57,800 nt of DNA from Clostridia bacterium (lineage in GTDB: Bacteria > Bacillota > Clostridia > Oscillospirales > Acutalibacteraceae): positions 1-57,800 of the forward strand of contig JAFODQ010000097.1 of assembly GCA_017380615.1 (NCBI GenBank), given 5' to 3'. Positions 11,317 through 56,667 of the stretch are shown here, one piece after another (positions within the stretch are counted from its first letter, which is position 1; every line of letters begins with the position of its first letter). The translations under genes and the position numbers were made by a program. The notes under the pieces are model-generated. The model had not been told where the DNA came from. It saw only the letters and a program-made list of their open reading frames with translations, and searched no databases.

Positions 11317-11337
11317 GGATCACATCTCCATTTTATT

Positions 11338-12657: not shown

Positions 12658-12699
12658 GATAACAGCCTCCAAGCAATAAATTTACACATTACCATTTTT

Positions 12700-12728: not shown

Positions 12729-12746
12729 GGATTTTCTTATAAACAC

Positions 12747-12775: not shown

Positions 12776-12833
12776 TTAATATGGTTAAATATGATACATG
12801 TTTATACCAAATTTCAAAGCAACGGAGACACTT

Positions 12834-13553: not shown

Positions 13554-13564
13554 AGGAAAACATT

Positions 13565-14482: not shown

Positions 14483-14500
14483 TTTATTCAGGTGATAAAA

Positions 14501-15970: not shown

Positions 15971-15982
15971 GGATTGTGTGAT

Positions 15983-17197: not shown

Positions 17198-17207
17198 GGT
17201 ATTTACT

Positions 17208-42613: not shown

Positions 42614-42657
42614 AATCACCCCGGAGAGGATAAAACCTCTCCGGGGTGATTGTTTTT
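42614..42657. terminator. Strong terminator after the ddl-like gene
   Basis: Sixteen-base perfect arms (42614-42629 and 42636-42651, core CACCCCGGAGAGG) with loop ATAAAA, then GTTTTTAAT on plus. The minus strand reads into TTTTCG, so it may also stop the YbjN-end transcript. Confidence 0.92.
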
Positions 42658-42665: not shown

Positions 42666-43139
42666 TTAATCCTGGTGTTCTGATTTGATAAAATCATCTA
42701 CGGAAAGCATTCCTTTTGCAATCATAAAGAATTTATCATTATATTTATCAACTGTTATAGATGACACAAAAATCATATACGCAAGAAGCTCTTCGCTGAG
42801 CACAGTGTCCTTGAAGCTTGATGTCATTCGGAAAAAAAGACTACCGTTGACAATGTTGTAATCAAATGATCCATCAACGATACCATAGTTAGCTGCACAC
42901 ACAGCAAGCGCCATATCCACACGCTTATCCTCAGGAATCTCAAATGGCATAAAGGATATAACCGAAACAACCTCATTTTCAGCAATAATTCTTATTATAA
43001 GATCAATATTAAAATCATCGCCTTTGACACTGCAAGTCACAACAAGCTCATCTTCATGCTTATTATACTTCCAGTTCCGGTTGTCAAGCATTTTGCACAA
43101 GGACTGAAATATATCCTTGGCTGCTGCAACATCTGCCAT
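42666..43139 (-). CDS. YbjN-like protein
   Basis: 157 residues, SD GGAGG 7 bases before the ATG. The alpha/beta pattern with F-R-M-T-S-S-F-K-D-T-V-L-S-E-E-L-L-A-Y and a long C-terminal helix (S-I-T-V-D-K-Y-x(2)-K-F) fits the YbjN / type III secretion chaperone-like fold, whose members act as chaperones or transcription modulators by protein binding. No catalytic residues. It is the last gene of the unit sigma-like, ZAS, YbjN, 38 bases after the ZAS gene, so it may be a chaperone or second binding partner there (inference). Confidence 0.7.
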   Translation of the reverse strand: MADVAAAKDIFQSLCKMLDNRNWKYNKHEDELVVTCSVKGDDFNIDLIIRIIAENEVVSVISFMPFEIPEDKRVDMALAVCAANYGIVDGSFDYNIVNGSLFFRMTSSFKDTVLSEELLAYMIFVSSITVDKYNDKFFMIAKGMLSVDDFIKSEHQD

Positions 43140-43177
43140 ACAAAAACCTCCATTAAATTTTTCTTGAAAGAAATTTC

Positions 43178-43396
43178 TTAAATTTCAATTTCTTCAACAT
43201 TCTCATTCACAAGCACACTTTCAATATTGATGCCGCGAAGCTTTCCGTTGATTATCTCAAAAGCCTCAACCTTCTCTGCACATTCACGGCAATCACGAAT
43301 GTGTAAATTCACCCTTGAAATCACTTCAAGATCCTCTTCACTGAGCTTGCCTACTGTTATATATCTGATAATATCCTCTGTTGATAAATGCTGCAT
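43178..43396 (-). CDS. Small ZAS-type (zinc) anti-sigma-like protein
   Basis: 72 residues from the ATG at 43396 with SD GAGGGTGAG; an ATG 12 codons earlier directly follows the stop of the sigma-like gene and is also possible. The motif H-x3-C-x2-C (H-I-R-D-C-R-E-C) is the zinc motif of ZAS anti-sigma domains, preceded by a helix with L-S-T-E-D-I-I-R-Y-I, as in the start of ECF anti-sigma factors. No membrane segment, so it is a soluble anti-sigma. Direct linkage to a sigma-region-2 protein supports the assignment. A Val/Glu-rich tail (N-V-E-E-I-E-I) ends the protein. Confidence 0.72.
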   Translation of the reverse strand: MQHLSTEDIIRYITVGKLSEEDLEVISRVNLHIRDCRECAEKVEAFEIINGKLRGINIESVLVNENVEEIEI

Positions 43397-43432
43397 TATC
43401 TCACCCTCAATATGCTTAGTTTTACAATTCAT

Positions 43433-44278
43433 TTATGCATCTTCCTGCCATCTGGAAACAATTTGTGAATCGATTCTGTTTACCCAGTCACTCATAGAAT
43501 ACAAGGCGCCCTTGTTCATATAGAAATCTGAGTATCTGGATTCTCCGATCAGGAAACCGTTTTCTTCATTTATTACTTCGAGTCTGGATTTTTGTTTTTC
43601 AAGCAAACGAGCATCAACCTTCAACCATCCAAGCTCTTCTATACTCCGTTCAATAAAACAGAACATGTCATAAAGTGTTGCATCATCAAATTTTTGGTGA
43701 GCTAATTTTATTGCTTCGTGTCTTTCAAGATCCTCTGTCACCAAAAGCAATGAAACAGCCAGCCATGTAAGAATAATATGAGGACTGTTTTTCAAATCAA
43801 AAACAAGCTCAAAGCTTTTGCTGATAAGATATTCAGACTCCAAACGTTTTTCAATCCTATCACTTGCAGAAGCCTTTGGATCAATCAATGTTTTCTCCTG
43901 TGTTTTATCGGGAGAATCATCGTCGTAATTATCAATAGGCTTGTTGATTCCTTTATCATATTTATCCTTATAACTAAGGAAATAGTTTTTAGAGACACGA
44001 GAAAGCCATGCTTTGAAATCATCACAGCTTTTTTCTTTGTAGGAGGTACCTTTTGCAAAGAAAAAATATTTTTCACTCTTCTTCACAACAATTATTAATA
44101 TCTCCTGAAGAATATCCTCTTCATGTCTTCCGCCCTTAAAAGCTACAACGGTTGAGCACCAGCTTTTAAGATATGGTTTGGCATGTTTCTCCACGAAGCG
44201 TATCAGGGAATCATACTTAGGAACATCGCTTTCAAAAATCTCAGACACAGCCTGTAAATACAATTGTTCGTAATCCAT
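43433..44278 (-). CDS. Divergent sigma-70-region-2 (ECF-like) protein
   Basis: 281 residues from the ATG at 44278 (SD GGGTGA, 7 bases away). Residues about 51-105 resemble sigma region 2: H-E-E-D-I-L-Q-E-I for the core-binding helix and F-K-A-W-L-S-R-V-S-K-N-Y-F-L-S-Y-K for the -10-recognition part. Region 4 is not clear; residues 145-215 could hold a degenerate one. The C-terminal 65 residues are an extra domain. It could be a real alternative sigma or a sigma-mimic bound by the ZAS protein next door. A sigma-A-type promoter lies just upstream. Confidence 0.68.
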   Translation of the reverse strand: MDYEQLYLQAVSEIFESDVPKYDSLIRFVEKHAKPYLKSWCSTVVAFKGGRHEEDILQEILIIVVKKSEKYFFFAKGTSYKEKSCDDFKAWLSRVSKNYFLSYKDKYDKGINKPIDNYDDDSPDKTQEKTLIDPKASASDRIEKRLESEYLISKSFELVFDLKNSPHIILTWLAVSLLLVTEDLERHEAIKLAHQKFDDATLYDMFCFIERSIEELGWLKVDARLLEKQKSRLEVINEENGFLIGESRYSDFYMNKGALYSMSDWVNRIDSQIVSRWQEDA

Positions 44279-44311
44279 TTTATTCACCCACATTTTTCTG
44301 AATATATTGCC

Positions 44312-44340
44312 ATTTTATCACATAATTATGATTTGTTCAA
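44312..44340 (-). promoter_or_regulatory. Promoter of the sigma-like/ZAS/YbjN unit
   Basis: Minus strand: -35 TTGAAC (44335-44340), 17-base spacer, -10 TAAAAT (44312-44317), in the 72 bases after the CARF gene. It suggests that sigma-like, ZAS and YbjN can be transcribed apart from the nuclease and protease genes. Confidence 0.7.
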
Positions 44341-44350
44341 CAATATTTTC

Positions 44351-45604
44351 CTACAGCCTGAGACTACGCAGTTTAGTTAAAAACTCCTCACGAGTCAGCT
44401 TGTGAGCTTTTTGAATAAGCTGGATATCCATATCCTTCGCTCTTTGAACAAAGTGTTCATGGTCATCATTATTCTCTTTGCCGTAGTAGGTAGAAATCAA
44501 AACCTTCTTTGCATATGGTCCGCCGAATCTGCCCGCAACCGTTTCCAGCTTATAAAGCGCTTCATCATCATACTGACCATTTTTGCAGGAAACAAACACA
44601 GGAACAAGTCCATGCATAAGGATAACATCTATTTCATTCTCTGTGTCCTTTATGACATCATTTTCTGCGTGAAACTCTGCATCCCAATCGATCATAACGC
44701 CCGTTGCAACGTCGTCAAACAACCGACCATCCTTATTCTCAACCTCGGAGCAATAGATGCTGGTTATCAGCTCAAGCACTGTTCCCGCTATAGTAAGGCA
44801 CCTCTTGATTTGCGCGTCCCTGAATGAAAAGGAAACATTTCCATCCTTATCTTCCCGGTATTTACGGATAAAGCCGTGCTTAAGGAACTCTCTTATATAC
44901 TCCTGCACCCAGACAATCTCATTATCCGCCTTATTTTTACTGTTGCCTTTATCCGATGGCTTTTTTGCTGCAAATTCCAGCTGATATGATTTCGGACAGT
45001 AATCCTTGGCAACACATCCGAGACTTGTTGTGAAGGTGTTCCATAACCAGGGCTTTTCTCTGCAGATATCCCAAAGAACCTTAACATCTTTAACAAAGTC
45101 ATCATTGAAATCCCAGACATATGTGCCACCATCCTCACTGAATGGTGCAATATCTCCGCCATAAATCATTATGTTATCTTCAACACTCATCTTCGGCATT
45201 CGGGTCACTACAAGTATTCCATCCCTGTCGCAATCTGCCACAGATCCTGTTGTAATATTTATTCTGTGCATAAGAATTTTTTTGGAGTCTTTATATTTTT
45301 CGTAAACAACACCCATTGCCACCAGAACAAGATCGTCACCACCGGTCAGGTCAAAAATATATTCATCCTGCGTCTGCACAATGTCTGTGAGCACATCTAT
45401 TATATTGTCAATTTTGTTTCTGTCCACCGGTCTGAAGGAGAATTCAATGTTAAGATTATGTCTTTGAACAAATCTTTCATATACCGGCTTATGGTCCTTT
45501 ATTGCTTTTTTGTCTCCAACAAAAACAACCCTTTCAGGCTTGATTGCCAGACAGCTTATCATGTTGCTTATAGCAACACCGTCATAAAACTCTACTACTG
45601 TCAA
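44351..45604 (-). CDS. CARF-domain nuclease of the Card1/Can2 (DUF1887) type
   Basis: 417 residues from a TTG at 45604; the frame is closed 7 codons upstream, so no earlier start exists. Residues 1-140 form a CARF domain (V-V-E-F-Y-D-G-V-A-I-S-N start; ligand loop D-L-T-G-G-D-D-L-V, 85-93). A linker with a winged-helix look (about 225-265) leads to a PD-(D/E)xK-type nuclease: Glu278 in V-L-E-L, N-E-I-D-V (Asp326) and V-S-C-K (Lys341), then A-L-Y-K-L. Card1 and Can2 are activated by cyclic tetra-adenylate and cut DNA and/or RNA. The usual Glu two before the Lys is Ser339 here. No cas gene is near. Confidence 0.86.
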   Translation of the reverse strand: MTVVEFYDGVAISNMISCLAIKPERVVFVGDKKAIKDHKPVYERFVQRHNLNIEFSFRPVDRNKIDNIIDVLTDIVQTQDEYIFDLTGGDDLVLVAMGVVYEKYKDSKKILMHRINITTGSVADCDRDGILVVTRMPKMSVEDNIMIYGGDIAPFSEDGGTYVWDFNDDFVKDVKVLWDICREKPWLWNTFTTSLGCVAKDYCPKSYQLEFAAKKPSDKGNSKNKADNEIVWVQEYIREFLKHGFIRKYREDKDGNVSFSFRDAQIKRCLTIAGTVLELITSIYCSEVENKDGRLFDDVATGVMIDWDAEFHAENDVIKDTENEIDVILMHGLVPVFVSCKNGQYDDEALYKLETVAGRFGGPYAKKVLISTYYGKENNDDHEHFVQRAKDMDIQLIQKAHKLTREEFLTKLRSLRL

Positions 45605-45744
45605 TGCACAACACTCTTTTCAATTCTTTTATAGCTTCATATCAATAACCTCCGCTTTTGTTCTTACAAACTCATTAACGAAACATGTAAAAACTTTTCG
45701 CAAAGGCTATCAGGGCAATTTGAAAATTGCCCTGATTTCTTTTG
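45605..45744 (-). other. 140-base leader of the CARF gene with hairpin and a 3-codon frame
   Basis: Between the protease-fusion gene and the CARF gene. A perfect inverted repeat ATCAGGGCAATTT (45709-45721 and 45724-45736) with a 2-base centre stands 8 bases after the stop; a U-run is absent on the minus strand, so it is not a standard terminator there. Further down, SD GGAGG is followed at 8 bases by ATG-AAG-CTA-TAA (45633-45644), a minimal frame, and 28 bases later comes the TTG of the CARF gene, whose own SD is weak. Confidence 0.55.
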
Positions 45745-48700
45745 TTATTTTCTTTTTGAATACAGAGAGAAAATCTTATCAATTTCATCTCCACTAAGAC
45801 TGGTCTTGTCCATAAGAGCTTCAACAATCTTGTCAACAGCAACTCGGTTTTCCTTAAGAAGTCGCTTGGCTTCTTCCAGCTGCTCATTAAGAATATTGTT
45901 TACTGCTTTTCTCACTTCAGCACCCAATTCTCCACCACACGCATTTGAATAATCAAGCACAGCAATACCCATGGAATCATCCATGCCAAAATCACAAACA
46001 ATGCTTCGCGCAACTGCTGTTGCTTTCTTAAGATCATCGCTCGGCCCTGTTGTAAGTCCGGCCTCATCACCGAAAAACACAAGCTCACAAGCACGACCAC
46101 CCAAGGCAGCACGCACAAAATCAAGAAGCTGCTTTTTGGTGCGTGTTCCTCTGTTTTCGGTATCTCCAAAGCCCATATATCCACCATGACCACCTCTTGC
46201 AACTATGGTAAGATATGATGGCTTCTCTCCTGAATGCCAGTAAAGGAACGCATGTCCGGCTTCGTGATATGCAGTTTTTCTGAGCTCCTGCGGATTCCAG
46301 CTTTTTTTATCACCGAAATTGTATGTCTCGAACGCTTCCTCAAGAACCTCGTTATCCACCTTATCCTTGCCCTGACGGAAAGCAATCCTCTTGGAAAGAG
46401 ACAGCACCATTTCAAGGTTTGCAAGGCTCATTCCGTTTGAACGGATTGCAAGGTTTTCAATTCCGGAATCGGTAATATCATATACATCTGACTGCTCAAG
46501 CTTCATATTAATAAACCTGATACGTGCCTTTTTGTCGGGCAGGTCCACATATATGCTTCTGTCAAACCGGCGAACAAAGGCAGGGTCAATGCTCCTGTCT
46601 CCACCCGGTTCAATCTCAAAGTTTGTTGCAGCAAGAACAAACACGGGCTTCTTGGGATTGGTGTTGAAGCCATCCATCTCTGCGAGGAAGGTTGTCAGAA
46701 CTCTCTCAGGCTGGTTATTACCATCGCCACCCCTGCGTTCCTTTGCAAAGGCATCCACTTCATCAATAAATATGATTGTGGGAGCATATTTTCTTGCAGT
46801 GAGGAAAAGCTGGCGAACAGCCGCTTCGCCCTCGCCACTATATTTTTTCATGAACTGATTTCCTTGTGCAGAAATAAAGGTTACACCTGATTCTCCTGCA
46901 ACAGCCTTTGCAAGAAGGGTTTTACCTGTACCGGGAGGGCCATAGAACAGCACACCCTTAGGCACATCCAGCCCCTTGCTCTTATATGCCTGAGGATTCT
47001 TAAGAAAATCCACAAAAAACTTAAGCTCGTCCTTTGCACCATCGGCACCGATAACCTCATCAAATTTAACATCAGGTCTTGAAAGTGCGCTCATAACACT
47101 TTCCTTGTCAGCTGAATCCACAGCTGTTTCAAGCTTCAGATCATAAAGAGAAATATTGGCAATGCCATTTTCCTCATCTATGGTCTGTGAGGTTTTATAG
47201 TAAACAATTTTGTTTGCACTCGCAAGCATATTCATGCTTGACTGCTGATGCACTCTTGTGAAAATCTCTTTGATGCTCTCTTCAAAATCAACCTTTTTGC
47301 TTACATTAACTGTTCCTCTTGCACCAATTTTTTTCAGGGACAACATTTCCTCTTCGGTGTAGGTTATATTTCTATTGTATGCTATGTAAACAGGAAGGTC
47401 TGTTCTGCTACAGATGTAATAAAGGAAATCGCTTCCCTCAGAATCCACATCCTCAACATTAAGATTTTCTTCATCATCCTTGTTTCCTGCGTAAAGATCG
47501 CACAAAACGAGATCAACCGGCTGATCATCAAGCTTTTCAACTGCATCCTCATAGCTTTTAGCAAAAACAATGTTGTAGCCTGACAGATTACGTTTGATCG
47601 CTCTGGAAATTGAATCGGTGGCAAAGACAAGTATATTTGCTGTACTTTCCTTTGTAAACAACACCTTTATATCTGCGTTGTCTTCTTCAATTTCCACATC
47701 AATATTGATTTCCTTTATATCCTTGGGAGATGCATTGGTCTTGGGTGTGGAAAGCAGCCTGAACAGCTCATAAAGCTCTGTGTTGAAAAATGCCTTGGCT
47801 CTGCTTTTTATTGTTCGGGCATCTGCCATGCCACCCTCAGCAAAAAGAATGGCAGAATAAACATTTTCTGAAATATTGATCCTGATGTCTGTTACATCTT
47901 CCAACGCCTTTACACTTCTGCTAATCTCCTTCTCGGCAATACCACGGAGAACATGCGCCTCCATATGATTGAACATTACAACATTGCCTGTTGCAAATCT
48001 TGAGCAGATTGCTGCCGGGAAAACGCCCTTACCTGTTTTGGGATCAACATCGTTTTCCAGTGCCTTAAGTATTGTTTTTCTGGGGATATGGGAAAGATTG
48101 GGCGTCTCCGAGCCTTCATAAATTTTTCTGCCGGCGTTTGTTGTGAAAATAACTATCGCCTTTGAGAAATCCACATCCTTACCTGTGTTTGCGTCACGCA
48201 GACGGCCTGCATCAAGAACCTGAAGAAACAGGTGAATAGCAACAATATGTGCCTTCTCAATCTCATCGAAAAGCAGCACACATTCCGGATGTCTTGCCAC
48301 AAAGCCTGTAAGCTCACCTTCTTTAGCACTCTTGTAAGATGTGTGTGTACCACAGAGCTTTATAACGGCATCATCATCTCTTGAGAACTCACTCATATCA
48401 AAGCGCTTATATGGCAAGTCAAGAAGCTCTGCAGACTTTTCTGCAAGGAAGGTTTTACCAACACCGGGAGGCCCTGCAAAGAGGAAGGTTGCCTTGGGTC
48501 TTGAATCACCTTTATCAATAAACTCCTTCATTTCCGCCTGAAAATATCCTGAAGCAAAAACACCTATCGCATTGTCCTGACCAAAAATCTCCAGACTGAG
48601 TTTGTTCTGGATATACTTCGCCTCTCGAGTTATATCTTCAATATCATCAATAGGTGGCACAGAAGCGAGCTCTGCACTAAAATCATAGAAATCATTATCT

Positions 48701-49215
48701 TCATAATTGCACTCAAATAAATTGTCCTGTTTAGATGGATCTGAATTATTTTCAGTGGCAGAGGAATCAGCTTTAGCCCCTTCATTGCCCGTGGAAGCAC
48801 TTCTGTTTAATATTGACCTTATCTCCTTGGTAGGAGTTGCAAAAATGCACCCAAGCAGAATATCCATACGAAGCACATTGAAGTCATTCTTAATAGATTC
48901 TTCTTCTGCAGCAAAAATAATTCTCTTGAAAAAAACATCATCAAGAAAGCTGGTTTTATCAACCTTGAGCTGCTCAATATATCCGGCAAAATCCACTACC
49001 TCGATATTATCCGCAATCACCTTTGCAGTGTTTTTCAATTCAAGCTCATCCATACCTTCATCTATGCGAGGATCTGCATTATCCATGTAATAACTCAAAA
49101 CAGCCATCATTAAATGATTTATGGATACAACTGTACAATTTTCTTTTTTTGCAACATCTGTCGCCTGATTCAAAAGAAAGCTTACAAATTTACTGTATGG
49201 AAGCTTAATTCCCAT
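45745..49215 (-). CDS. Clp-type AAA+ / receiver-like / FtsH-type AAA+ M41 protease fusion
   Basis: 1156 residues in one uninterrupted frame. Order: Clp N-domain-like helices (about 5-135); acidic linker; ClpA/B-type AAA+ with Walker A G-P-P-G-V-G-K-T (248-255) and Walker B V-L-L-F-D-E-I-E-K-A-H (313-323); receiver-like domain (about 527-655) with Asp573 in L-V-L-C-D-L at the phospho-site; FtsH-type AAA+ with G-P-P-G-T-G-K-T (759-766), F-I-D-E-V-D (816-821) and the second-region A-T-N...R-R-F-D-R; M41 zinc peptidase with H-E-A-G-H (984-988) and Asp1061 in T-T-G-P-S-D-D. No membrane segment, unlike FtsH. Predicted soluble two-ring ATP-dependent protease. I know no described protein with this order. 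Confidence 0.9.
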   Translation of the reverse strand: MGIKLPYSKFVSFLLNQATDVAKKENCTVVSINHLMMAVLSYYMDNADPRIDEGMDELELKNTAKVIADNIEVVDFAGYIEQLKVDKTSFLDDVFFKRIIFAAEEESIKNDFNVLRMDILLGCIFATPTKEIRSILNRSASTGNEGAKADSSATENNSDPSKQDNLFECNYEDNDFYDFSAELASVPPIDDIEDITREAKYIQNKLSLEIFGQDNAIGVFASGYFQAEMKEFIDKGDSRPKATFLFAGPPGVGKTFLAEKSAELLDLPYKRFDMSEFSRDDDAVIKLCGTHTSYKSAKEGELTGFVARHPECVLLFDEIEKAHIVAIHLFLQVLDAGRLRDANTGKDVDFSKAIVIFTTNAGRKIYEGSETPNLSHIPRKTILKALENDVDPKTGKGVFPAAICSRFATGNVVMFNHMEAHVLRGIAEKEISRSVKALEDVTDIRINISENVYSAILFAEGGMADARTIKSRAKAFFNTELYELFRLLSTPKTNASPKDIKEINIDVEIEEDNADIKVLFTKESTANILVFATDSISRAIKRNLSGYNIVFAKSYEDAVEKLDDQPVDLVLCDLYAGNKDDEENLNVEDVDSEGSDFLYYICSRTDLPVYIAYNRNITYTEEEMLSLKKIGARGTVNVSKKVDFEESIKEIFTRVHQQSSMNMLASANKIVYYKTSQTIDEENGIANISLYDLKLETAVDSADKESVMSALSRPDVKFDEVIGADGAKDELKFFVDFLKNPQAYKSKGLDVPKGVLFYGPPGTGKTLLAKAVAGESGVTFISAQGNQFMKKYSGEGEAAVRQLFLTARKYAPTIIFIDEVDAFAKERRGGDGNNQPERVLTTFLAEMDGFNTNPKKPVFVLAATNFEIEPGGDRSIDPAFVRRFDRSIYVDLPDKKARIRFINMKLEQSDVYDITDSGIENLAIRSNGMSLANLEMVLSLSKRIAFRQGKDKVDNEVLEEAFETYNFGDKKSWNPQELRKTAYHEAGHAFLYWHSGEKPSYLTIVARGGHGGYMGFGDTENRGTRTKKQLLDFVRAALGGRACELVFFGDEAGLTTGPSDDLKKATAVARSIVCDFGMDDSMGIAVLDYSNACGGELGAEVRKAVNNILNEQLEEAKRLLKENRVAVDKIVEALMDKTSLSGDEIDKIFSLYSKRK

Positions 49216-49232
49216 CTTTACACCCCTAATTC

Positions 49233-49514
49233 TTACTTCTTTTCTATGCTATATCCTAAAGCAATAATTGTTTTCAACGTCTGCTCTGCCGTTATACGAT
49301 CATAAGCCTTTTCTTCATCAGAAAGCTCATCGTACGCCACCATACATGGTGTGGTCTTTGCTGAATCATCTCTTTTTTCGCCATAGGTCCAGCCCTCCTT
49401 GGCTCTCTGATATGCCCAATTCTCGTGAACATTTTCAGCAATCTTTTCCATGAGCTCATTCAAGCCCTCGGGAAGCTGAACACCTGACAAATCTAATGGT
49501 TCTGGTTTATACAT
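49233..49514 (-). CDS. Stand-alone RyR-domain protein
   Basis: 93 residues, SD AAAGGA 9 bases before the ATG. The whole chain matches one RyR (ryanodine receptor) repeat: Y-K-P-E-P-L-D-L-S-G-V-x-L, E-N-V-H-E-N-W-A-x-x-R-x-x-E-G-W-T-Y-G-x-x-R-D-D, T-P-C-M-V-A-Y-D-E-L, D-R-x-T-A-E-Q-T-L-K-T-I-I-A-L-G-Y. Prokaryotic RyR domains occur with CARF and other nucleotide-signal conflict genes and have been proposed to sense nucleotide-derived ligands. The gene ends 17 bases before the protease fusion, so the two are probably translated together. It may be a sensor, adaptor or inhibitor of the protease (inference). Confidence 0.88.
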   Translation of the reverse strand: MYKPEPLDLSGVQLPEGLNELMEKIAENVHENWAYQRAKEGWTYGEKRDDSAKTTPCMVAYDELSDEEKAYDRITAEQTLKTIIALGYSIEKK

Positions 49515-49656
49515 AAGCTATTATCCTTTCCCCTTTCGGGATGTAATATAATGCAATTAAGTTATCTTCTCTTTTTTTTGCAGCTGAGTGAACAAGGGAA
49601 ACAATTATTGCCCTTGACACCCTTGCAAGTAAAAGCAACAGCAGGAATTCAAACAT
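49507..49656 (-). CDS. Possible 49-residue membrane peptide leading into the RyR gene
   Basis: An ATG at 49656 opens 49 codons ending at TAA 49507-49509. The start codon of the RyR gene lies inside its last codons (8-base overlap), a pattern typical of coupled genes. The peptide begins with F-E-F and six Leu, continues with a hydrophobic stretch to about residue 23, then a basic patch (K-K-R) and a Y-Y-I-P-K-G-E-R end. The SD is weak (CTGGTG close to the ATG), so it could be chance. No family recognised. Confidence 0.35.
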   Translation of the reverse strand: MFEFLLLLLLARVSRAIIVSLVHSAAKKREDNLIALYYIPKGERIIAYV

Positions 49657-50270: not shown

Positions 50271-51665
50271 TTATTGAATTTCATCAAGCTTAACACCTTT
50301 TGTTTCCTTAACCTTAAGTGCAAACATAATTGCTGCAATGCTTACTGCAGGCACAGAAACTGCAAGGCAAGCCCACCATATAGGCATTGCAATCATTCCC
50401 AGAATTGTTACACCATAGCCCACAGCAAGACCAATTATAACAAGCAGACCCTCTGCCCCCACAACCGATGCACGGATATCAGTAGGTACCTTTTCGGTCA
50501 TCATAACATTCATATAGTCTCTGCCAATCCAATATGAGCCTTGATAGAGACCTGCAAGAGCCCCCACAAGATATGGATTCCAGCCTCTGAGAATGCCCAC
50601 AACAAAAAGTATATATCCCGCAACACATGTTACCGAAAATGCAGTAACAGTAACCTTTCTACCCAGCTTATCTGCAATAAAGCCTGACAAGAAGGTTATT
50701 GTGGCATAAATTACAGGCACCATAAAAAGAGCCCTTGTAATATCCGATGTGCTCATACCGGCACGGTGCATTGATGATTCAAAATACAAAGCAATGGCAG
50801 GCATTGCAGAATCAAAGATAATGTGTGAAATTATAAGCAGCTTTGTATCCTTGTTTGAGAAAATATATTTCACACCGTTAAACACGCCGGACTGATTTCT
50901 CTGTGCCTGACGTTGCTGCTTTTGAAGCTCCCTTTCTCTCTCCCTTTCTTCTAATGGTCGGGATAAGTATTCAAGCCTTTCTCTTATGAAAACCTTTGTG
51001 TCCTTAGCAAGGATAAGCACAAGCGCAACAGCCACAAATCCTATGAGCGCAGGAACAAGAAAGATTTCACGCCACTTTGAAGCATCATCACCCATGAGAG
51101 CGTCTCTCAATGCGGGTATGAGAATAACACCGAGAATACCGAAGCTCTTGAGGAAGCTGTATATTTTTGCTCTGTGCTTTTCAGGTGCTTCCTCGAGAAT
51201 ATAGATAATCTGTACATCATGCCCCATAAAGAAGCTGATAACAGCAAAGCCCACAAGGAACATTATGTAGCTTGAGGAAAGGTAGATAATAAGAAGTCCC
51301 GAAGCCATACCTAATGTGGAAATAGCAAACAAGGGCTTTCTGCCCCATTTATCTGCAAGAGCCTTATAGAAGGGTGTGAAAATACCCAGAACATAGGTAA
51401 AAACACCTATACCCGAGTGAAAGGCAAGTCCATCTTCGTAGGTATAATATTTACCCATAAAGGGATTATTTACAAAAAACTCTGTGACAAAGGATGATTG
51501 AACAGTAACAGTGAGGTTACTTGTTACCTCATCGAGGATATTGACAATTGCAATAAGAATGAGAAGAACAAAAAAATACCTTCCTGAATTTCCTCTGCCT
51601 CGCATTCGCTCAAGCCTTGAAATCTGTTTTGATTCTTTGTTCAAGGTTTTCGCTGTGTTAATCAT
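50271..51665 (-). CDS. MFS transporter
   Basis: 464 residues with 12 hydrophobic segments and a charged middle loop (about 225-260, E-R-E-R-E-R-E-L-Q-K-Q-Q-R-Q-A-Q). The MFS signature A-D-K-W-G-R-K-P appears after segment 2 and is repeated as A-D-K-L-G-R-K in half two. The N-terminus has a 25-residue basic stretch before the first segment. Substrate unknown. It overlaps the PnuC-like gene by 4 bases (ATGA), so both are coupled, and a nicotinamide- or vitamin-related substrate is possible. Confidence 0.88.
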   Translation of the reverse strand: MINTAKTLNKESKQISRLERMRGRGNSGRYFFVLLILIAIVNILDEVTSNLTVTVQSSFVTEFFVNNPFMGKYYTYEDGLAFHSGIGVFTYVLGIFTPFYKALADKWGRKPLFAISTLGMASGLLIIYLSSSYIMFLVGFAVISFFMGHDVQIIYILEEAPEKHRAKIYSFLKSFGILGVILIPALRDALMGDDASKWREIFLVPALIGFVAVALVLILAKDTKVFIRERLEYLSRPLEERERERELQKQQRQAQRNQSGVFNGVKYIFSNKDTKLLIISHIIFDSAMPAIALYFESSMHRAGMSTSDITRALFMVPVIYATITFLSGFIADKLGRKVTVTAFSVTCVAGYILFVVGILRGWNPYLVGALAGLYQGSYWIGRDYMNVMMTEKVPTDIRASVVGAEGLLVIIGLAVGYGVTILGMIAMPIWWACLAVSVPAVSIAAIMFALKVKETKGVKLDEIQ

Positions 51666-52360
51666 TCCATCACCTCTGAATTTTCTTTCTGCCGTTTATA
51701 AAGCTTTTTTGCCTTGAAGAAAGCAAAGCATATGCAAACAAACGAGTAAACAGCAAAAATAAGATATGTGGTCATTTCGGGAGATTCTGCAAGCATTGAA
51801 ACATAAAGTACAATGCCTATTATTCCATTAACTACCATAAATGCAGTATATTCCACAAAGGCAAACATGGTAAGGAACAGAATCAGCACACCGAGAAGTG
51901 TTGTGGCGCTGTCAAGAAGAACATACTCTGCACCCATAAGCGGCAGCAATACCCACATTGCAGCGAGTACAACCCCATAACCTATAAGAACCAGAATTCT
52001 TTGCTTCCAATTCATTTTACGAAGCACCGTGGAGTGCTCCCACTTGTTTTTATTCCAGCGAATGAATGTGATAAGCTGCATCGGAAAAGAAAAGAGAAAT
52101 GCCGATAATGCCGATGCATAGAGGTTATAATACACATACACAAATCCATAGAGAAGTGAATTCATACTTCCCAGAAGATTACTGTATCTGTTCACCTTTG
52201 ACTGAAGTGTTGCGATTATCAGTGAATTATACAGTGGCAGAATCATCAGAAATTTCTGATTATAATACGCACCCGCAGCTGTAATCAATATGGCTGTCAA
52301 CGCCATAAGGAAATATATGAAAATATCTTTTTTCTCAATTTTTTTGTGTTTATCCTTCAT
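51662..52360 (-). CDS. PnuC-like nicotinamide riboside/vitamin transporter
   Basis: 232 residues, about seven hydrophobic segments. The segment N-R-Y-S-N-L-L-G-S-M-N-S-L-L-Y-G followed by F-P-M-Q-L-I-T-F-I-R-W matches the substrate-site pattern of the PnuC family (facilitated uptake of nicotinamide riboside, with relatives for thiamine and riboflavin). The ATG has no clear SD, and a 15-base palindrome lies 11-25 bases upstream. First gene of the operon pnuC-like, MFS and Nim-like. Assignment of the vitamin is not possible. Confidence 0.75.
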   Translation of the reverse strand: MKDKHKKIEKKDIFIYFLMALTAILITAAGAYYNQKFLMILPLYNSLIIATLQSKVNRYSNLLGSMNSLLYGFVYVYYNLYASALSAFLFSFPMQLITFIRWNKNKWEHSTVLRKMNWKQRILVLIGYGVVLAAMWVLLPLMGAEYVLLDSATTLLGVLILFLTMFAFVEYTAFMVVNGIIGIVLYVSMLAESPEMTTYLIFAVYSFVCICFAFFKAKKLYKRQKENSEVME

Positions 52361-52453: not shown

Positions 52454-52915
52454 TTAGCCCTTCACATTATAATCGCCATTAACGAGATTCATAGCTGTGA
52501 GCATTTTGTGCAGATAGATAAACGGTCCAACAATAATAAATGAACCTAACACGCCCCAAAGCCAGAAATCTGTTGCGCTGAAGCTATAAGAAATGCCACG
52601 CCTTTTAAGCTCATTGCCGATACGGTTTGAAATGTTATGTAACCAAACAATACCTGCGATACCACAAGTTATAGGTGCTACGATAAATGAAAGAAGGCAG
52701 TAATGCATTGTCTTTTTGCCATCATATCTTGAAGCAACTGTGTTGATATCTGTTGACACACCCGAAAAAACAACAATCGCATAAATACCAAAGGTAATGA
52801 GTGACAGCAGGATTGTCTTAACAAGACTTCTGTTTGTCTTAAGCTGAGCTACCGGTGGGGGATTAAAGTTTGGGTTATAATTCGGGTTGTAATTTGGATT
52901 GTAATTGTTATCCAT
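52454..52915 (-). CDS. DUF4234-type small membrane protein with an Asn-Tyr-Pro repeat start
   Basis: 153 residues, SD GAGGAG. The first 20 residues repeat N-Y-N-P (four units). The remainder has three to four hydrophobic segments with I-L-L-S-L-I-T-F-G-I-Y, T-C-G-I-A-G-I-V-W-L-H-N-I-S-N-R-I-G-N-E-L and a Trp-rich third segment, the DUF4234 pattern. Function unknown; members are often found next to zinc-ribbon membrane proteins, as here. It has its own promoter and terminator. Confidence 0.82.
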   Translation of the reverse strand: MDNNYNPNYNPNYNPNFNPPPVAQLKTNRSLVKTILLSLITFGIYAIVVFSGVSTDINTVASRYDGKKTMHYCLLSFIVAPITCGIAGIVWLHNISNRIGNELKRRGISYSFSATDFWLWGVLGSFIIVGPFIYLHKMLTAMNLVNGDYNVKG

Positions 52916-52962
52916 GGTTATCTCCTCTCGATTAATTAAAATCTGTGTATTTTATTATTCTG

Positions 52963-52991
52963 AATATATCATATTTTTTGTTTAATGTCAA
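52963..52991 (-). promoter_or_regulatory. Promoter of the DUF4234 gene
   Basis: Minus strand: -35 TTGACA (52986-52991), 17-base spacer, -10 TATATT (52963-52968). Confidence 0.82.
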
Positions 52992-53028
52992 CAAATCTTC
53001 GACAATAATGAACACAAAAACTATTTGT

Positions 53029-53057
53029 TTGACACATTCGGAGTTTTGTGATATATA
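53029..53057 (+). promoter_or_regulatory. Promoter of the 186-residue zinc-ribbon gene
   Basis: -35 TTGACA (53029-53034), 17-base spacer, -10 TATATA (53052-53057), about 33 bases before the ATG; divergent from the DUF4234 promoter. Confidence 0.8.
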
Positions 53058-53089
53058 TGGTAATATAAATCAAAAAAGGAGCGCTTTAT

Positions 53090-53650
53090 ATGGGACGCAC
53101 AATAAAAGAATTTGCTCTTCCGCAGCCGGTGCCTGAGCTTATGAACTACGCTCAGAGCTACCTTACTTCAGAAGGCTACACATACAAGGAACGAAAAGGC
53201 GAACAGGTTTTCCAGAAGGGCTCCGGCCTTGTGACAGGACCAACCTTTATCAAAATCACACTCATTAACAACATCGTAAGGCTTGAGGGCTGGATGAAAA
53301 TGGCTCTGCTTCCGGGTGTTTATGTAGGTGAAACAGATCTTGATGATTTTTTGGGCTGTGCAGCTAAGGGGCCACTCAAAAGACGCTATGCATACCTTGA
53401 AAATATGATAAGAAGCTATGGTGGTGTGCAGGTAGCACCGGGCTTTGCCCAGGCACCCTTCCAACAGCCACAATATCAGCAGCCGGTTCAGTACCAGCAG
53501 CCACCACAATACCAACCGTCACAGTATCAGCAGTCTGCACAGCCCCCTCAGATGCCTCAGCAGCAAGCTGCTCCTGTATGTAATGCTTGCGCAAAACCAG
53601 CACAACCGGGCGCACACTTCTGTGCCAACTGCGGAAATAAGCTCCAATAA
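53090..53650 (+). CDS. Protein with unknown N-domain, Gln/Pro/Tyr-rich linker and C-terminal zinc ribbon
   Basis: 186 residues, SD AAAGGAG. Residues 1-110 form a compact alpha/beta domain of unknown type, about 115-160 is a low-complexity linker (repeats of Q-Y-Q-Q-P), and the end is a zinc ribbon C-N-A-C...C-A-N-C-G-N-K-L. No membrane segment, unlike its neighbours, and the ribbon is at the C-terminus. The linker resembles the one in the protein at 56668-57165. Monocistronic with promoter and terminator. Confidence 0.8.
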   Translation: MGRTIKEFALPQPVPELMNYAQSYLTSEGYTYKERKGEQVFQKGSGLVTGPTFIKITLINNIVRLEGWMKMALLPGVYVGETDLDDFLGCAAKGPLKRRYAYLENMIRSYGGVQVAPGFAQAPFQQPQYQQPVQYQQPPQYQPSQYQQSAQPPQMPQQQAAPVCNACAKPAQPGAHFCANCGNKLQ

Positions 53651-53655
53651 AAACC

Positions 53656-53690
53656 AATCCCACTGTGTAATAAACACAGTGGGATTTTTT
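53656..53690. terminator. Terminator between convergent zinc-ribbon and sulfatase genes
   Basis: Thirteen-base perfect arms AATCCCACTGTGT (53656-53668) and complement (53674-53686), followed by TTTTTT on plus. It touches the end of the sulfatase gene and may work for both. Confidence 0.9.
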
Positions 53691-55104
53691 AGAATCTCTT
53701 CCAGAAATTCACACCCCAGGGGTGAGCCTGCTCATCCCACTCATCACGGTGCTCCATTATCTTTTCACGAAGCTCTTTAATTTTATTTTTATATTCTTCT
53801 GAAGCTGCAAGGTTATTGGTTTCCCACGGATCATTCTTTATATCATAAAGGAATGTCCATTTATCATCTTCATTATCGCCATTGCGATATTCAATCAGCT
53901 TGTAATTGTTGTCCTTCACACCACGGACAAACTCATCAAATATCAGATAAAGCTCATCGCGTTGACTTTCTCCGTGCTCACCATCAAGAAGCTGTGCAAA
54001 GCTTTGACCATCCACTGATTCAGGAATTTCAATACCCAATTTCTCACAAAGAGTGGGGAAAATATCATAAAGATACACATAAGCCTCATTGCGCTTATTT
54101 TCAGCAATGCCGGGACCTGCCATTACAAGAGGCACACGAACGCCATGCTCATATATATCCTCTTTTCCCAACCATCCATGCTGACCAACAGCAAGACCAT
54201 TATCTCCCGTGAAAACGACGATTGTATTTTCCTCCTCCCCTGATTCACGCAGGGCATCAAGCAATCTGCCGATTTCCGAATCAAGATGTGTTATCATTGC
54301 AAAATATTCCGCAATATGTTTTTTTATTTCGCTCTCCTTACGAGGATATGCTGCAAGGTGTTCATCCCTGTGCACCATAAGAGGATAATTTGTATCAATA
54401 ACCTCCTGAAAATTAGGTGGCAGCTTAATCTTTTCAGGGTCATACATTTCCCGAAAGCTGTCCGGCATTGTACGAGGATCGTGTGGTGCAAGATAAGCAA
54501 GATACATAAAGAAGGGTTTATCTTTACCTGCATTTTCTTTAAGCAAATCAATAGCTGCGTCTGTGAGAAGTGTGCTCGAATGCTTACCGGGTGAGAATTC
54601 ATCGCAATGCTGAGCAAGAGGCTCATTATCCTTAAAGAAATCCACCACAAAATTTATTACATTATCATATTCTCCCGTGGGGTCATATCTGCATGTGGGT
54701 ACATTCCAATGGTCCCACATCCCGCCAAAGAATATTTTTGCGCCCTGAGTAAAGCTTCGTGCATAGGCAGGGCAGCCATTGTGCCACTTTCCTAGTCCGA
54801 TGGTTTCATAGCCATTCGCCTTGAAAACCTCACCAATCGTTTTATGCTGTGACGGAATATTCCCACCAAGCTCTTCAAGATGGAATGGGTTGCGTCCCGA
54901 CAAAACCATTGCTCTGCTTGGCATGCAAACAGCACCACAGGTGCCTCCTGCAATATGTGCACGGGTAAAGGCTGTTCCACGCTCAACCAGCCTATCAAGA
55001 TTCGGTGTTATAATTTCGTCATTTCCCAGGGCGTGGATTGTATCGAACCTTTGGTCATCTGTGATAATGAATAAGACATTAGTTTTTTTCATAGCATTAA
55101 TCAA
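53689..55104 (-). CDS. Type I sulfatase (Cys-type, alkaline phosphatase superfamily)
   Basis: About 471 residues from a TTG at 55104 with SD AAAGGA 5 bases upstream; an ATG four codons later (55092) is the alternative. No signal peptide, so cytosolic. The metal-site D-D-Q is at 16-18 and the formylglycine signature C-M-P-S-R-x(4)-S-G has Cys60, which in anaerobes is oxidised by an anSME radical SAM enzyme, not present in the window. Later G-K-W-H, H-D-P-R and G-D-N-G are the other active-site parts. Likely removes sulfate from sugars such as host or algal glycans. Preceded by a leader of nearly 300 bases. Confidence 0.9.
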   Translation of the reverse strand: MINAMKKTNVLFIITDDQRFDTIHALGNDEIITPNLDRLVERGTAFTRAHIAGGTCGAVCMPSRAMVLSGRNPFHLEELGGNIPSQHKTIGEVFKANGYETIGLGKWHNGCPAYARSFTQGAKIFFGGMWDHWNVPTCRYDPTGEYDNVINFVVDFFKDNEPLAQHCDEFSPGKHSSTLLTDAAIDLLKENAGKDKPFFMYLAYLAPHDPRTMPDSFREMYDPEKIKLPPNFQEVIDTNYPLMVHRDEHLAAYPRKESEIKKHIAEYFAMITHLDSEIGRLLDALRESGEEENTIVVFTGDNGLAVGQHGWLGKEDIYEHGVRVPLVMAGPGIAENKRNEAYVYLYDIFPTLCEKLGIEIPESVDGQSFAQLLDGEHGESQRDELYLIFDEFVRGVKDNNYKLIEYRNGDNEDDKWTFLYDIKNDPWETNNLAASEEYKNKIKELREKIMEHRDEWDEQAHPWGVNFWKRF

Positions 55105-55406
55105 ATATATCCTTTGTTTTGTAAATAATTGTATCCTCAATGACTTGAGGTCGGTAGCGGTTGATTCAGTATCTCTGCCGTGAACCCTGAAGCATTGCAA
55201 CAGGATTTTTAAAATCTGCAATTATTTTACCGACAATTAATTTCAGTATTGCTGTTTTTATCTCCACTGCCGATAGAATCAATGTAATAATAAATCCCCC
55301 ACCTCAACAAGCGAAACAACATTCATATTGCCGGGCAAAGCAGACATGACAATAAGCGCACATAAAAACTTATTGAAATTTTCTCAAGCAGCATTTCATT
55401 TTTTAT

Positions 55407-55435
55407 ATTATACATCACCTTTTTTTCAATGGCAA
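55407..55435 (-). promoter_or_regulatory. Likely promoter of the sulfatase gene
   Basis: Minus strand: -35 TTGCCA (55430-55435), 17-base spacer, -10 TATAAT (55407-55412). The predicted leader to the start codon is nearly 300 bases, long enough for regulation. Confidence 0.6.
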
Positions 55436-55470
55436 CAATTATATTAAATCAGACTCCCTATATAAAATCA

Positions 55471-55499
55471 TTGAAAAAAGCTGAAGACTTTGATAAAAT
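55471..55499 (+). promoter_or_regulatory. Promoter of the 26-codon peptide
   Basis: -35 TTGAAA (55471-55476), 17-base spacer, -10 TAAAAT (55494-55499). The start codon lies about 10 bases after the predicted transcription start. Confidence 0.55.
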
Positions 55500-55515
55500 C
55501 AGATAGGGTGAGATT

Positions 55516-55596
55516 ATGAAAAAGACGATTGCACTGCTACTGGCAGTTTTATTACTGCTTTCAACAGCTTCCCGATTACATGATGCTTTACAATGA
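55516..55596 (+). CDS. 26-residue signal-peptide-like peptide or gene remnant
   Basis: ATG at 55516 with SD AGGGTGAG. The peptide starts M-K-K-T, has a 13-residue Leu/Ala/Val core and A-S, then seven more residues and TGA. It is what is left of a secreted protein gene, or a real small secreted/membrane peptide: promoter, SD and terminator are all present around it. Too short for family assignment. Confidence 0.4.
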   Translation: MKKTIALLLAVLLLLSTASRLHDALQ

Positions 55597-55609
55597 AATA
55601 AACAACAAA

Positions 55610-55640
55610 AAAACTGCTTCCAACGGAAGCAGTTTTCTTG
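55610..55640. terminator. Bidirectional terminator
   Basis: Twelve-base perfect arms AAAACTGCTTCC (55610-55621) and complement (55625-55636), loop AAC, with T-runs on both strands. Serves the zinc-ribbon gene at 55648 (minus) and the 26-codon frame (plus). Confidence 0.9.
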
Positions 55641-55647
55641 TTTTGAT

Positions 55648-56235
55648 TTATCTGTTGTTTTCAAGGCTGAGGAATGCATCCTTATTATTCATAACAAAGC
55701 CTCTTATAGCAACAAAATAATAGATTGAGCCGATAACACCAACCACACCACCTACCAGGATGTTGTAAACAAGTGTAATGATAGCTGAGGTTGTTGGCTC
55801 ATGCTTGCTTACAATGCCAACAGGGTTAACAAGGATAGCCTTGCTGTATTTCATATCATTAACACCGCTGATGATGTTAAGCACACCAACAATAGCAGGG
55901 AAAATGGCAATAAAGCCGAAAAGAATCTGCAGCACACCAATCACTATCCAGATGATACCGTTTGTGTTGATTTTCTGTGACAGCTGCTGAACTAGCTGCT
56001 GAGGATTACCGGCATATGGTGCATAACCCTGGTTATAGCCCGGATTATAAGACTGATTATAATTAGGGTTATATCCCTGATTATAATTTGGTGCCTGACT
56101 ATAGTTTGGCGCCTGATTATAATTTGGTGCCTGACTCTGAGCTGCCTGAGCAGATGGTGCAGTTGAGGCACCACAGGCCGCACAGAATGCTGCGTTATCT
56201 TCTAATTCTTTTCCACACATAGAACAAAATTTCAT
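55648..56235 (-). CDS. Zinc-ribbon membrane protein with Asn-Tyr-rich linker
   Basis: 195 residues from the ATG at 56235, SD GGGGGT 6 bases away; the frame runs 20 codons further up without an SD. Zinc ribbon F-C-S-M-C-G-K-E-L...F-C-A-A-C-G at the N-terminus, then a linker (about 30-75) of N-Y-N-Q and N-Y-S-Q repeats, then about three hydrophobic segments with N-I-I-S-G in between. Near-copies of the first 20 residues open the next two genes. Function unknown; possibly membrane organisation or a sensor. Own promoter upstream. Confidence 0.82.
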   Translation of the reverse strand: MKFCSMCGKELEDNAAFCAACGASTAPSAQAAQSQAPNYNQAPNYSQAPNYNQGYNPNYNQSYNPGYNQGYAPYAGNPQQLVQQLSQKINTNGIIWIVIGVLQILFGFIAIFPAIVGVLNIISGVNDMKYSKAILVNPVGIVSKHEPTTSAIITLVYNILVGGVVGVIGSIYYFVAIRGFVMNNKDAFLSLENNR

Positions 56236-56267
56236 AAAATTACCCCCGAATTTTAAAATCCACTTTA

Positions 56268-56295
56268 ATATTATCACAATCAACACATAAGTCAA
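56268..56295 (-). promoter_or_regulatory. Promoter of the Asn-Tyr-rich zinc-ribbon gene
   Basis: Minus strand: -35 TTGACT (56290-56295), 16-base spacer, -10 TAATAT (56268-56273). Confidence 0.65.
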
Positions 56296-56298
56296 TTG

Positions 56299-56655: not shown

Positions 56656-56667
56656 AACCTACACTCC

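Follow-up and report, generated by a model that had tools for sequence, protein, structure and literature searches.

A fused Clp/receiver/FtsH protease encoded with RyR, CARF and sigma/anti-sigma-like proteins in a modular operon of a Clostridia bacterium: a possible link between nucleotide signals and proteolysis

Here we describe a six-gene operon from a Clostridia bacterium, found in a DNA stretch of 57,800 nucleotides (the window), in which a fused Clp/receiver/FtsH protease is encoded together with RyR, CARF nuclease, sigma-like, anti-sigma-like and YbjN-family proteins. We read it, with a probability of about 0.5, as a modular, nucleotide-signal-linked proteolysis operon that carries a sigma switch of its own. 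What is established is which genes are present, how their products are built from domains, that the catalytic motifs of the protease are intact, how the genes are arranged, and that the parts recur and co-occur; from there on every functional step is what we infer. The RyR and CARF proteins probably read nucleotide alarm signals: the former would bind, and perhaps hydrolyze, a messenger of the ADP-ribose type produced by TIR enzymes whose genes lie at other places in the genome, while the CARF nuclease would serve as a second nucleotide-gated effector. The main effector would be the soluble protease, whose two AAA+ engines, acting in series, may unfold substrates and feed them into the M41 chamber, with the YbjN-type chaperone presenting or protecting these substrates. 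The sigma/zinc-finger pair could be the operon's own transcription switch, amplifying its expression on a trigger. If confirmed, such an arrangement would tie TIR/NAD signaling to regulated proteolysis and transcription. The operon is a second example from nature in which nucleotide-signal proteins are paired with a protease and with a sigma/anti-sigma switch. It also suggests that RyR domains standing alone have a role in bacteria; work on phage proteins (2026 preprint) has tied this family to immune signals based on cyclic ADP-ribose.

The gene order on one strand proposed in the first-pass annotation of this DNA was borne out (Table 1): reading 5' to 3', the RyR, fused protease, CARF nuclease, sigma-like, anti-sigma-like and YbjN genes follow each other with gaps of 17, 140, 57, 0 and 38 bp. 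The hairpin between the protease and CARF genes may set two halves of the operon apart or act as an attenuator between them. The candidate operator pattern was derived from the same two copies in which it is listed, and no other exact match occurs elsewhere in the window or, outside the window copies, among 319 loci. Foreign origin judged by base composition was rejected, the G+C content of the operon segments (0.385-0.423) being similar to that of the flanks. When promoter hexamers common to co-occurring genes were sought, only 1 of 13 region pairs had a best match above the top value of 20 shuffles (12 vs 11), therefore no shared promoter is claimed.

Table 1. Positions of the operon, its genes and neighboring sequence elements in the window
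Feature	Position	Strand	Remarks
Six-ORF operon	42666-49514	minus	all six ORFs present
Terminator-like hairpin at operon end	42614-42651	listed for both strands	16-bp stem, 10 G-C pairs; consensus match only
YbjN-family protein, 157 aa	42666..43139	-	Pfam YbjN E 3.9e-7
Anti-sigma-like zinc-finger protein (H-x3-C-x2-C), 84 aa, or 72 aa from inner ATG at 43396	43178..43432	-	leave-one-out profile E 5.8e-15
Sigma-like protein, putative region 2 and conserved C-terminal region	43433..44293	-	leave-one-out profile E 2.8e-34
CARF4 / Card1-Can2-type PD-(D/E)xK nuclease, 417 aa, TTG start	44351..45604	-	Pfam and PADLOC
Hairpin, 12-bp stem	45709..45736	.	between protease gene and CARF gene
Fused protease, 1156 aa	45745..49215	-	N-terminal region, Clp-type AAA+, receiver, FtsH-type AAA+, M41 zinc protease
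Receiver-like (REC) domain within protease	47218..47637	-	residues about 527-666; bounds approximate
Free-standing RyR-domain protein, 93 aa	49233..49514	-	Pfam RyR E 1.1e-35; aligned to solved RyR domains
Candidate operator, two copies of AGGGTGTNNAGGGCAA	49608..49682	-	59 bp apart, upstream of RyR start

Pfam assigned AAA (E 1.1e-48), Peptidase_M41 (3.4e-33) and AAA_2 (5.4e-33) to the fused protease, in agreement with its earlier description as an AAA+/AAA+/M41 enzyme, which had overlooked the receiver domain. Walker A and B motifs of both AAA domains, the HExxH motif and the distal Asp are conserved in the 19 sequences compared, the sole exception being the start of one contig-truncated copy. 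A hydropathy scan found no transmembrane-like segment (top 19-residue value 1.34 vs 2.68 for the host's own FtsH), and the enzyme is apparently soluble, devoid of a membrane anchor. With FtsH it shares the AAA plus M41 half, which has 39% identity with the FtsH encoded by the host; it differs in the missing anchor and in the Clp-type AAA+ and receiver domains preceding that half, and its FtsH_fam score of 354.9 falls below the curated cut-off of 600. For the receiver region, the AF2 model built with four sequences as input had a mean pLDDT of 76.4, its best Foldseek match was a response-regulator receiver domain (E 1.4e-6), and 49 of the 50 PDB matches listed were titled response regulator, receiver domain or CheY-like protein. 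The remaining title referred to a coiled-coil fusion and did not state the domain type. Asp573 of this domain is invariant across the aligned proteases, and in our own reading of the alignment no conserved Lys was seen at the end of receiver strand 5. Conserved protease motifs, the receiver fold and the lack of an anchor all speak for an operon built around proteolysis.

Among the titles and abstract openings listed in literature searches, none describes a Clp/receiver/FtsH-M41 architecture. The FtsH-containing MoxR-vWA ternary conflict systems, as presented in the accessible part of PMC7159879, likewise place FtsH-type AAA in a conflict system, but they combine two FtsH-type AAA domains, the first of them inactive, with MoxR and vWA, whereas here the first AAA is of Clp type with intact Walker motifs and the operon contains no MoxR-vWA pair. 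PADLOC matches of the protease to IetA and DolB were rejected as presumably due to shared AAA domains.

Among 394 genomes of the order, a profile found the fused protease in 13, counting the host; 13 other genomes of the host's family had none. From 80 genome-contig loci listed, L040-L042 were taken as fused proteases and 76 were set aside as short matches; L043, consisting of two adjacent ORFs, was excluded from the counts. No phage or plasmid record in the collections searched matched as much as 80% of the protease query at a single place, and pattern scans with the FtsH-free region were abandoned, as the patterns matched generic Clp ATPases. The clusters at 16 close protease loci contain YbjN relatives in 9 cases, the sigma/anti-sigma pair in 4, CARF in 3 and free RyR in 3. 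Among 196 other genomes, protease and RyR co-occur in 4 (0.21 expected), protease and CARF in 4 (0.31 expected) and CARF and RyR in 5 (0.36 expected), these counts being small, with hit thresholds set after the hits were seen and profiles built in part from the genomes under test. Within-family shuffles gave p = 0.013, 0.0014 and 0.00027 for these pairs, respectively, and were not significant for protease-YbjN (0.34), sigma-YbjN (0.25) and sigma-RyR (0.051). Leave-one-out searches recovered all four divergent-clade YbjN proteins, 4/4 anti-sigmas and 4/4 sigmas. The linkage of parts noticed in the window thus extends, in small counts, beyond chance to other families of the order; on the question whether the genes stay together in related genomes, many pairings recur, but there is no fixed set, and the parts are a kit used in changing combinations, not a fixed operon.

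Such varying combinations, as well as the frequent solitude of CARF genes (10 of 12 extra CARF places show no other listed part nearby), would also be expected of a defense-island mosaic, that is, of independent systems lying side by side and not acting together. We regard this as very unlikely, given that these few families turn up in new combinations with each other in clusters on one strand, next to proteases sharing 33-48% identity with that of the window, and that 11 bp separate the CARF and RyR genes of G120.

The commonest neighbor of the protease, YbjN, accompanies enzymes of deeply separated clades. Relatives at L041 and L040 score above the Pfam YbjN cut-off, those at L219, L217 and L234 below it, and the first copy of L215 has no match to this family; the calls for L219, L217 and L215 are based on similarity to the window YbjN and that for L234 on a profile. 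According to the accessible text of PMC9503650, chaperone families of ADPr-linked immune systems are related to the YbjN superfamily of peptide-binding 'TY-chaperones', and this relation, together with the recurrence beside separate protease clades, argues for the proteolysis operon proposed here.

The prevalence of YbjN, the many protease loci lacking both RyR and CARF, and the adjacent but separate Clp-ATPase and FtsH genes carried by plasmids of other bacteria could as well point to a general stress or proteostasis unit, where the protease would work with YbjN to remove damaged proteins, the zinc finger would respond to thiol or zinc stress and the neighbors with nucleotide domains would be passengers. 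Those plasmid genes resemble heat-tolerance loci, and redox sensing, common among ZAS anti-sigmas, would suit such a unit. It appears quite unlikely to us, since co-occurrence within families links RyR and CARF to the protease and to one another, and the patchy distribution, with no protease in the 13 other genomes of the host's family, is unlike that of housekeeping genes.

The sigma-like protein had been described as carrying sigma region 2. Taken alone, the window protein stays below the Sigma70_r2 cut-off (E 0.038), but its homologue L234 lies above it (E 1.1e-5) and the best solved match of the family profile is the ECF sigma SigW (E 0.0037), so that a sigma-70-type region 2 is predicted at the level of the family. 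At E up to 1, Sigma70_r2 was matched by 4 of 10 family members and a region-4 family by none of the 10; hhalign against two ECF sigmas gave P 0.0018 at a probability of only 14.7% (YbjN control, P 0.3). A single-sequence AF2 model (pLDDT 39) was discarded, and a G174 match (E 1.5e-4) was dropped on reading its sequence. The putative anti-sigma, which in the window exceeds no family's cut-off in the Pfam search, is better placed by context: a gene for a relative directly follows the sigma gene in 10/10 sigma loci and the H-x3-C-x2-C motif is kept in 8/10, in line with the initial assignment.

Sigma/anti-sigma and protease share one cluster in four families (the window, G002, G512 and G570), and the accessible part of PMC12751052 offers a precedent, in which CalpL cuts CalpT and CalpS is released. 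By analogy, a nucleotide signal could activate the fused protease, which would degrade the zinc-finger anti-sigma and free the sigma-like protein. The two systems have in common a protease gene, an anti-sigma/sigma pair and nucleotide-sensing domains. However, CalpL is a SAVED-Lon protease of type III CRISPR, whereas among the best 25 family matches of our Clp/REC/FtsH-M41 enzyme there is no CARF, SAVED, RyR or Lon domain; here separate proteins are the likely sensors, the sigma pair is not always present, and nothing in the 91%-complete host matched PF22335, the Cas10 palm family and the one Cas10 family searched. Moreover, 6 of 10 sigma loci have the pair but no fused protease in the neighborhood and, in the 197-genome sample, a full-length protease was not seen in 5 of 7 other sigma-positive genomes, nor a sigma of the window's family in 4 of 6 other protease-positive ones. 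Because of these numbers, a protease freeing sigma is not the rule, and a Calp-like cascade seems to us possible but rather doubtful. From the signal-protease-sigma cascade originally suggested, the linkage of parts and the affiliation of CARF and RyR to nucleotide-signal families hold, and the release step does not hold in general: in the proteolysis operon we favor, removal of the anti-sigma by the fused protease might be one way of release, but it cannot be the general one. Unlikely, too, is the full chain in which a TIR-made ADP-ribose signal would act through RyR on the soluble double-ring protease with YbjN as adaptor, and the destroyed anti-sigma would free a region-4-less sigma, making a CRISPR-independent, NAD-signal counterpart of the Calp cascade.

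As to the signal itself, a TIR/ADP-ribose messenger is a better lead for RyR than cyclic oligoadenylate, because binding or cleavage of cyclic ADP-ribose signals has been shown for RyR proteins of phages: in the available part of a 2026 preprint (PMC13232231), 2'/3'cADPR were bound by 6 of the 8 homologues examined and are cleaved by RyDEP. It is also the better fit because TIR genes are present in 15/15 part-bearing genomes tested vs 28/92 others, which may reflect general defense load, while, of 11 genomes with this CARF family, a single one (G144) has the PF22335 Cas10 domain and the host has none. A TIR gene shares the cluster with RyR at L036 and L304, and at L312 both are fused (RyR E 4.2e-18, TIR_2 E 8.8e-12); no TIR match was found in G091, a sigma-bearing genome outside the 15 tested. 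Mapped by spacing, H30, W33 and D72 of the window RyR match H75, W78 and D117 of RyDEP, as these residues are given in the available part of PMC13232231, so the likeness to RyDEP and other phage PF02026 proteins lies in the RyR domain with His-x2-Trp and Asp; the window protein differs in being bacterial and operon-borne and in having T55 in place of the phosphate-binding H100. The co-occurrence of protease, RyR and CARF, the TIR enrichment, the TIR genes clustered with or fused to RyR and the cADPR-binding phage proteins all count for the nucleotide-signal-linked operon, and against it count this Thr, the lack of a TIR gene among the window genes examined, the missing TIR match in G091 and the mostly solitary CARF.

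The CARF nuclease comprises both an N-terminal CARF and a C-terminal Card1-type nuclease domain (Pfam Card1_endonuc E 2e-6; PADLOC CARF4-PDDEXK E 1.7e-34), and its family profile matches Can2 (7bdv, E 4.1e-5) and VC1899 (1xmx, E 1.9e-4). Like Can2/Card1, it joins CARF to a Card1-like PD-(D/E)xK domain, but the family differs from them in the rarity of Cas10 in its genomes and in the active site, where the Glu of the Can2/VC1899 E-x-K is replaced by Ser (S-C-K) in 16/16 aligned sequences, the window's included. The active-site D and K are retained, and a conserved Glu upstream of S-C-K (E278) could, judging from the alignment, stand in for the missing one.

The six genes of the operon occupy the minus strand of the window from 49514 to 42666, the window being one entire contig of 57,800 bases in a host assembly of 1.97 Mb (119 contigs, 91% complete). 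The first-pass annotation described their content correctly, apart from one omission, a receiver domain within the protease. Successive genes are separated by 17, 140, 57, 0 and 38 bp; the intergenic region upstream of the RyR gene measures 253 bp, and a terminator-like hairpin stands between the operon end and a convergent D-Ala-D-Ala ligase gene. Two copies of AGGGTGTNNAGGGCAA, 59 bp apart, are located upstream of the RyR gene and constitute a candidate operator, the pattern having been derived from those same copies; a search for promoter elements common to the co-occurring genes yielded nothing that could be claimed. Also upstream of the operon is a PnuC-like (nicotinamide riboside transporter) gene (E 2.3e-8, below the cut-off), and PnuC-like genes were noticed by eye near the proteases of genomes G152 and G616. 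Another segment of the window encodes zinc-ribbon-like or low-complexity proteins (by eye) and a sulfatase-like gene, with no operon link seen.

Operon genes and other located features (L, retrieved loci)
Feature	Place	Coordinates	Strand
RyR, 93 aa	first operon gene		minus
Fused protease, 1156 aa	second operon gene		minus
CARF putative nuclease, 417 aa	third operon gene		minus
Sigma-like protein, 286 aa	fourth operon gene		minus
Zinc-finger anti-sigma-like protein, 84 or 72 aa	fifth operon gene		minus
YbjN, 157 aa	sixth operon gene		minus
Terminator-like hairpin	window	42614-42651	
PnuC-like gene	window	51662-52360	
Zinc-ribbon-like/low-complexity and sulfatase-like genes	window	52454-57165	
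AAA_lid_6 ATPase	L232	8583-10562	
AAA_lid_6 ATPase	L234	7852-9849	
AAA_lid_6 ATPase	L309	8069-10135	
TIR protein and nucleoside hydrolase	L234 (G127)	11017-13210	
Divergent sigma pair	L236	9790-12697	
Divergent sigma pair	L237	262-3145	
Fused protease and neighbours	L042 (Christensenella)	4847-17309	
TIR-RyR fusion	L312 (G029)	6796-8805	
TrkA-like membrane protein	L310 (host contig C4)	7303-9399	

The receiver domain is situated between the two AAA+ parts of the protease, which gives the order N-region, Clp-type AAA+, receiver, FtsH-type AAA+ and M41. It was modelled as a (beta-alpha)5 fold (AF2 with four sequences, pLDDT 76), and among 50 listed Foldseek titles, 49 referred to a response regulator, a receiver domain or a CheY-like protein (best E 1.4e-6). 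Its Asp573 is invariant among eight aligned sequences; no conserved Lys was seen in the alignment at the end of strand 5, and for this reason the domain may be a pseudo-receiver. In the 19 proteases compared, the Walker A and B motifs of both AAA+ domains, HExxH and the distal Asp are conserved, except at the start of one truncated copy, and no membrane-like segment is present in the window protease (peak hydropathy 1.34 vs 2.68 for the host's own FtsH). Plasmid matches (Agrobacterium, Paracoccus, Roseomonas and others) carry adjacent, separate Clp-ATPase and FtsH genes, possibly an unfused counterpart of this architecture.

Of 197 genomes sampled from the order, seven carry the fused protease; it is absent from all 13 further members of the host's family in that sample. 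By profile (E up to 1e-60) it was found in 13/394 genomes of the order and 3/391 of the class, counts which each include the host; among the profile matches are one copy truncated where its contig stops (G616) and two divergent ones (G637, G538). Named relatives among the matches listed are Clostridia, Acetatifactor and Christensenella assemblies. The 19 proteases are that of the window, 15 from sampled genomes (two from G002) and L040-L042; 16 close loci are left once L221 (the truncated copy) and L216 and L222 (the divergent pair) are set aside. YbjN is the commonest listed neighbour (9/16: window, L038, L039, L040, L041, L215, L217, L219, L220), is duplicated or triplicated at some of these nine, and accompanies proteases from several deep clades of the protease tree. 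The sigma/anti-sigma pair is in the cluster at four loci (window, L037, L215, L218), and three each have CARF (window, L033, L037), free RyR (window, L034, L036) or TrkA-like membrane proteins (L034, L036, L218), some members of the last family carrying a C-terminal sub-threshold RyR match (L235, L314). TIR genes occur at L036, in the same gene cluster as RyR, and at L220, 4.7 kb off on the opposite strand. L035 has none of these parts (YbjN, sigma pair, CARF, RyR, TrkA-like, TIR), and at L042 the sole such feature is a RyR-like match below threshold, in a 1050-aa membrane protein; vWA-like, PP2C-like and kinase-like proteins were noticed there by eye. The divergent L216 and L222 showed no YbjN match; their neighbours are DUF1292-like (L216: E 4e-4, below the cut-off) or are related proteins without a family assignment.

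Co-occurrence of five sets was compared in the 196 other sample genomes, with cut-offs chosen after viewing the matches (CARF E < 1e-90, RyR < 1e-20, YbjN < 1e-30, sigma < 1e-15). Observed against expected genomes were 4 vs 0.31 for protease and CARF (within-family label shuffle, p 0.0014), 4 vs 0.21 for protease and RyR (p 0.013), 5 vs 0.36 for CARF and RyR (p 0.00027) and 4 vs 0.36 for sigma and CARF (p 0.0027). The same shuffles gave p 0.0043 for RyR-YbjN, 0.0092 for CARF-YbjN, 0.038 for protease-sigma, 0.051 for sigma-RyR, 0.25 for sigma-YbjN and 0.34 for protease-YbjN; these ten tests rest on small counts and on profiles drawn in part from the same genomes. The picture was unchanged with a CARF cut-off of E < 1e-50. 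CARF genes (23/197 genomes at E up to 1e-10) are often alone: among 12 further places two are near RyR (L259, 11 bp; L260) and the other ten showed none of the listed parts in their vicinity; at one of these (L267) there is only an ordinary FtsH gene, at a distance of 4.5 kb.

A profile built from four sigma-like proteins found the family in 9/197 genomes. The G174 match was dropped once its sequence was read; the remaining finds with G512 and G570 make up ten loci, some limited by short contigs (L237, 3,963 bp; L232, ending near the sigma gene). An anti-sigma-like gene follows immediately downstream at all ten, and eight of the partners keep H-x3-C-x2-C. Sigma region 2 is weakly but repeatedly supported in the family; region 4 was undetected. 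The fused protease is in the cluster at only 4/10 loci. Elsewhere the pair stands with CARF and an AAA ATPase (L232), with an AAA ATPase and YbjN (L234), with a TrkA/RyR-like membrane protein about 18 kb from the same genome's CARF-protease pair (L235), or with no other listed part shown (L233). L236 and L237, both divergent pairs whose small partner lacks the His/Cys motif, adjoin a long protein, which at L236 matches HD (E 1.4e-9). Five of the seven other sigma-positive sample genomes (E < 1e-15) showed no full-length fused protease (G091, G127, G144, G171, G192), and four of the six other protease-positive ones showed no such sigma (G016, G021, G080, G152). Release of the sigma factor by the protease, as proposed initially, therefore cannot be a general rule. 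Where the fused protease is missing, an AAA_lid_6 ATPase family of about 660-690 aa has sigma/anti-sigma with CARF, sigma/anti-sigma with YbjN, or YbjN as partners. At L234 the sigma/anti-sigma/AAA/YbjN set adjoins genes for a TIR protein of the CAP12 type (E 1.4e-10) and for a nucleoside hydrolase (E 8.1e-27).

The operon resembles in outline the CalpL-CalpT-CalpS cascade of type III CRISPR (PMC12751052, PMC11229360) but is not a member of it, since its protease has no Lon or SAVED match (best 25 families shown), Cas10 was not found in the host by a PF22335 search, and its sigma pair is facultative. Nor does it match the ternary conflict systems of FtsH type outlined in PMC7159879. A literature search, judged mostly by titles and abstract starts, found no description of this protease or gene set. 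The analysis shows which genes and domains are present, that the protease motifs are intact, and how the parts are arranged and linked; for their roles we infer that RyR would read (or erase) the signal, the CARF protein would act as a second effector, degradation of chosen proteins would fall to the protease together with YbjN, and the sigma pair would control expression. One published analysis (PMC9503650) links chaperone families of ADPr-linked immune systems with the YbjN superfamily, whose chaperones bind peptides. The Glu of the Can2-type E-x-K motif is Ser in 16/16 aligned CARF sequences, hence this protein is termed a putative nuclease.

For RyR, an ADP-ribose-type signal is the better lead, because of the RyDEP data, TIR distribution, TIR-RyR linkage and rarity of Cas10. 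According to a 2026 preprint (PMC13232231), the phage RyR protein RyDEP cleaves 2'cADPR and 3'cADPR, the TIR-made signals of Thoeris, and six of eight homologues tested bind these signals. The window RyR keeps equivalents of RyDEP His75, Trp78 and Asp117 (mapped by spacing), with Thr at the His100 position, as in the RyRs beside the L034 and L036 proteases and 4/5 other free RyRs; the L306 RyR has His. TIR_2 matches were present in all 15 part-bearing genomes tested (14 over the cut-off; five in the host), against 34 genomes of a 98-genome sample, or 28/92 after removal of six common to both sets, the 92 being not wholly free of genomes that bear parts (TIR is present in G090 and G020, absent from G091). 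Protease genomes G616, G637 and G538 and sigma genomes G171 and G192 were left out of this test. Cas10 family PF22335, the one family searched, was found in 1/11 CARF-bearing genomes. TIR adjoins RyR in L036, lies in the TrkA/RyR cluster of L304 and is fused to RyR in L312. The L312 protein has two hydrophobic N-terminal segments, TIR (E 8.8e-12) and RyR (E 4.2e-18); a single polypeptide may here both make the signal and read or erase it. A further RyR-related protein of the host, encoded at L310, is a TrkA-like membrane protein of 698 aa that matches the RyR profile weakly (E 7.5e-6) and has no Pfam match; small genes near it look STAS-like by eye.
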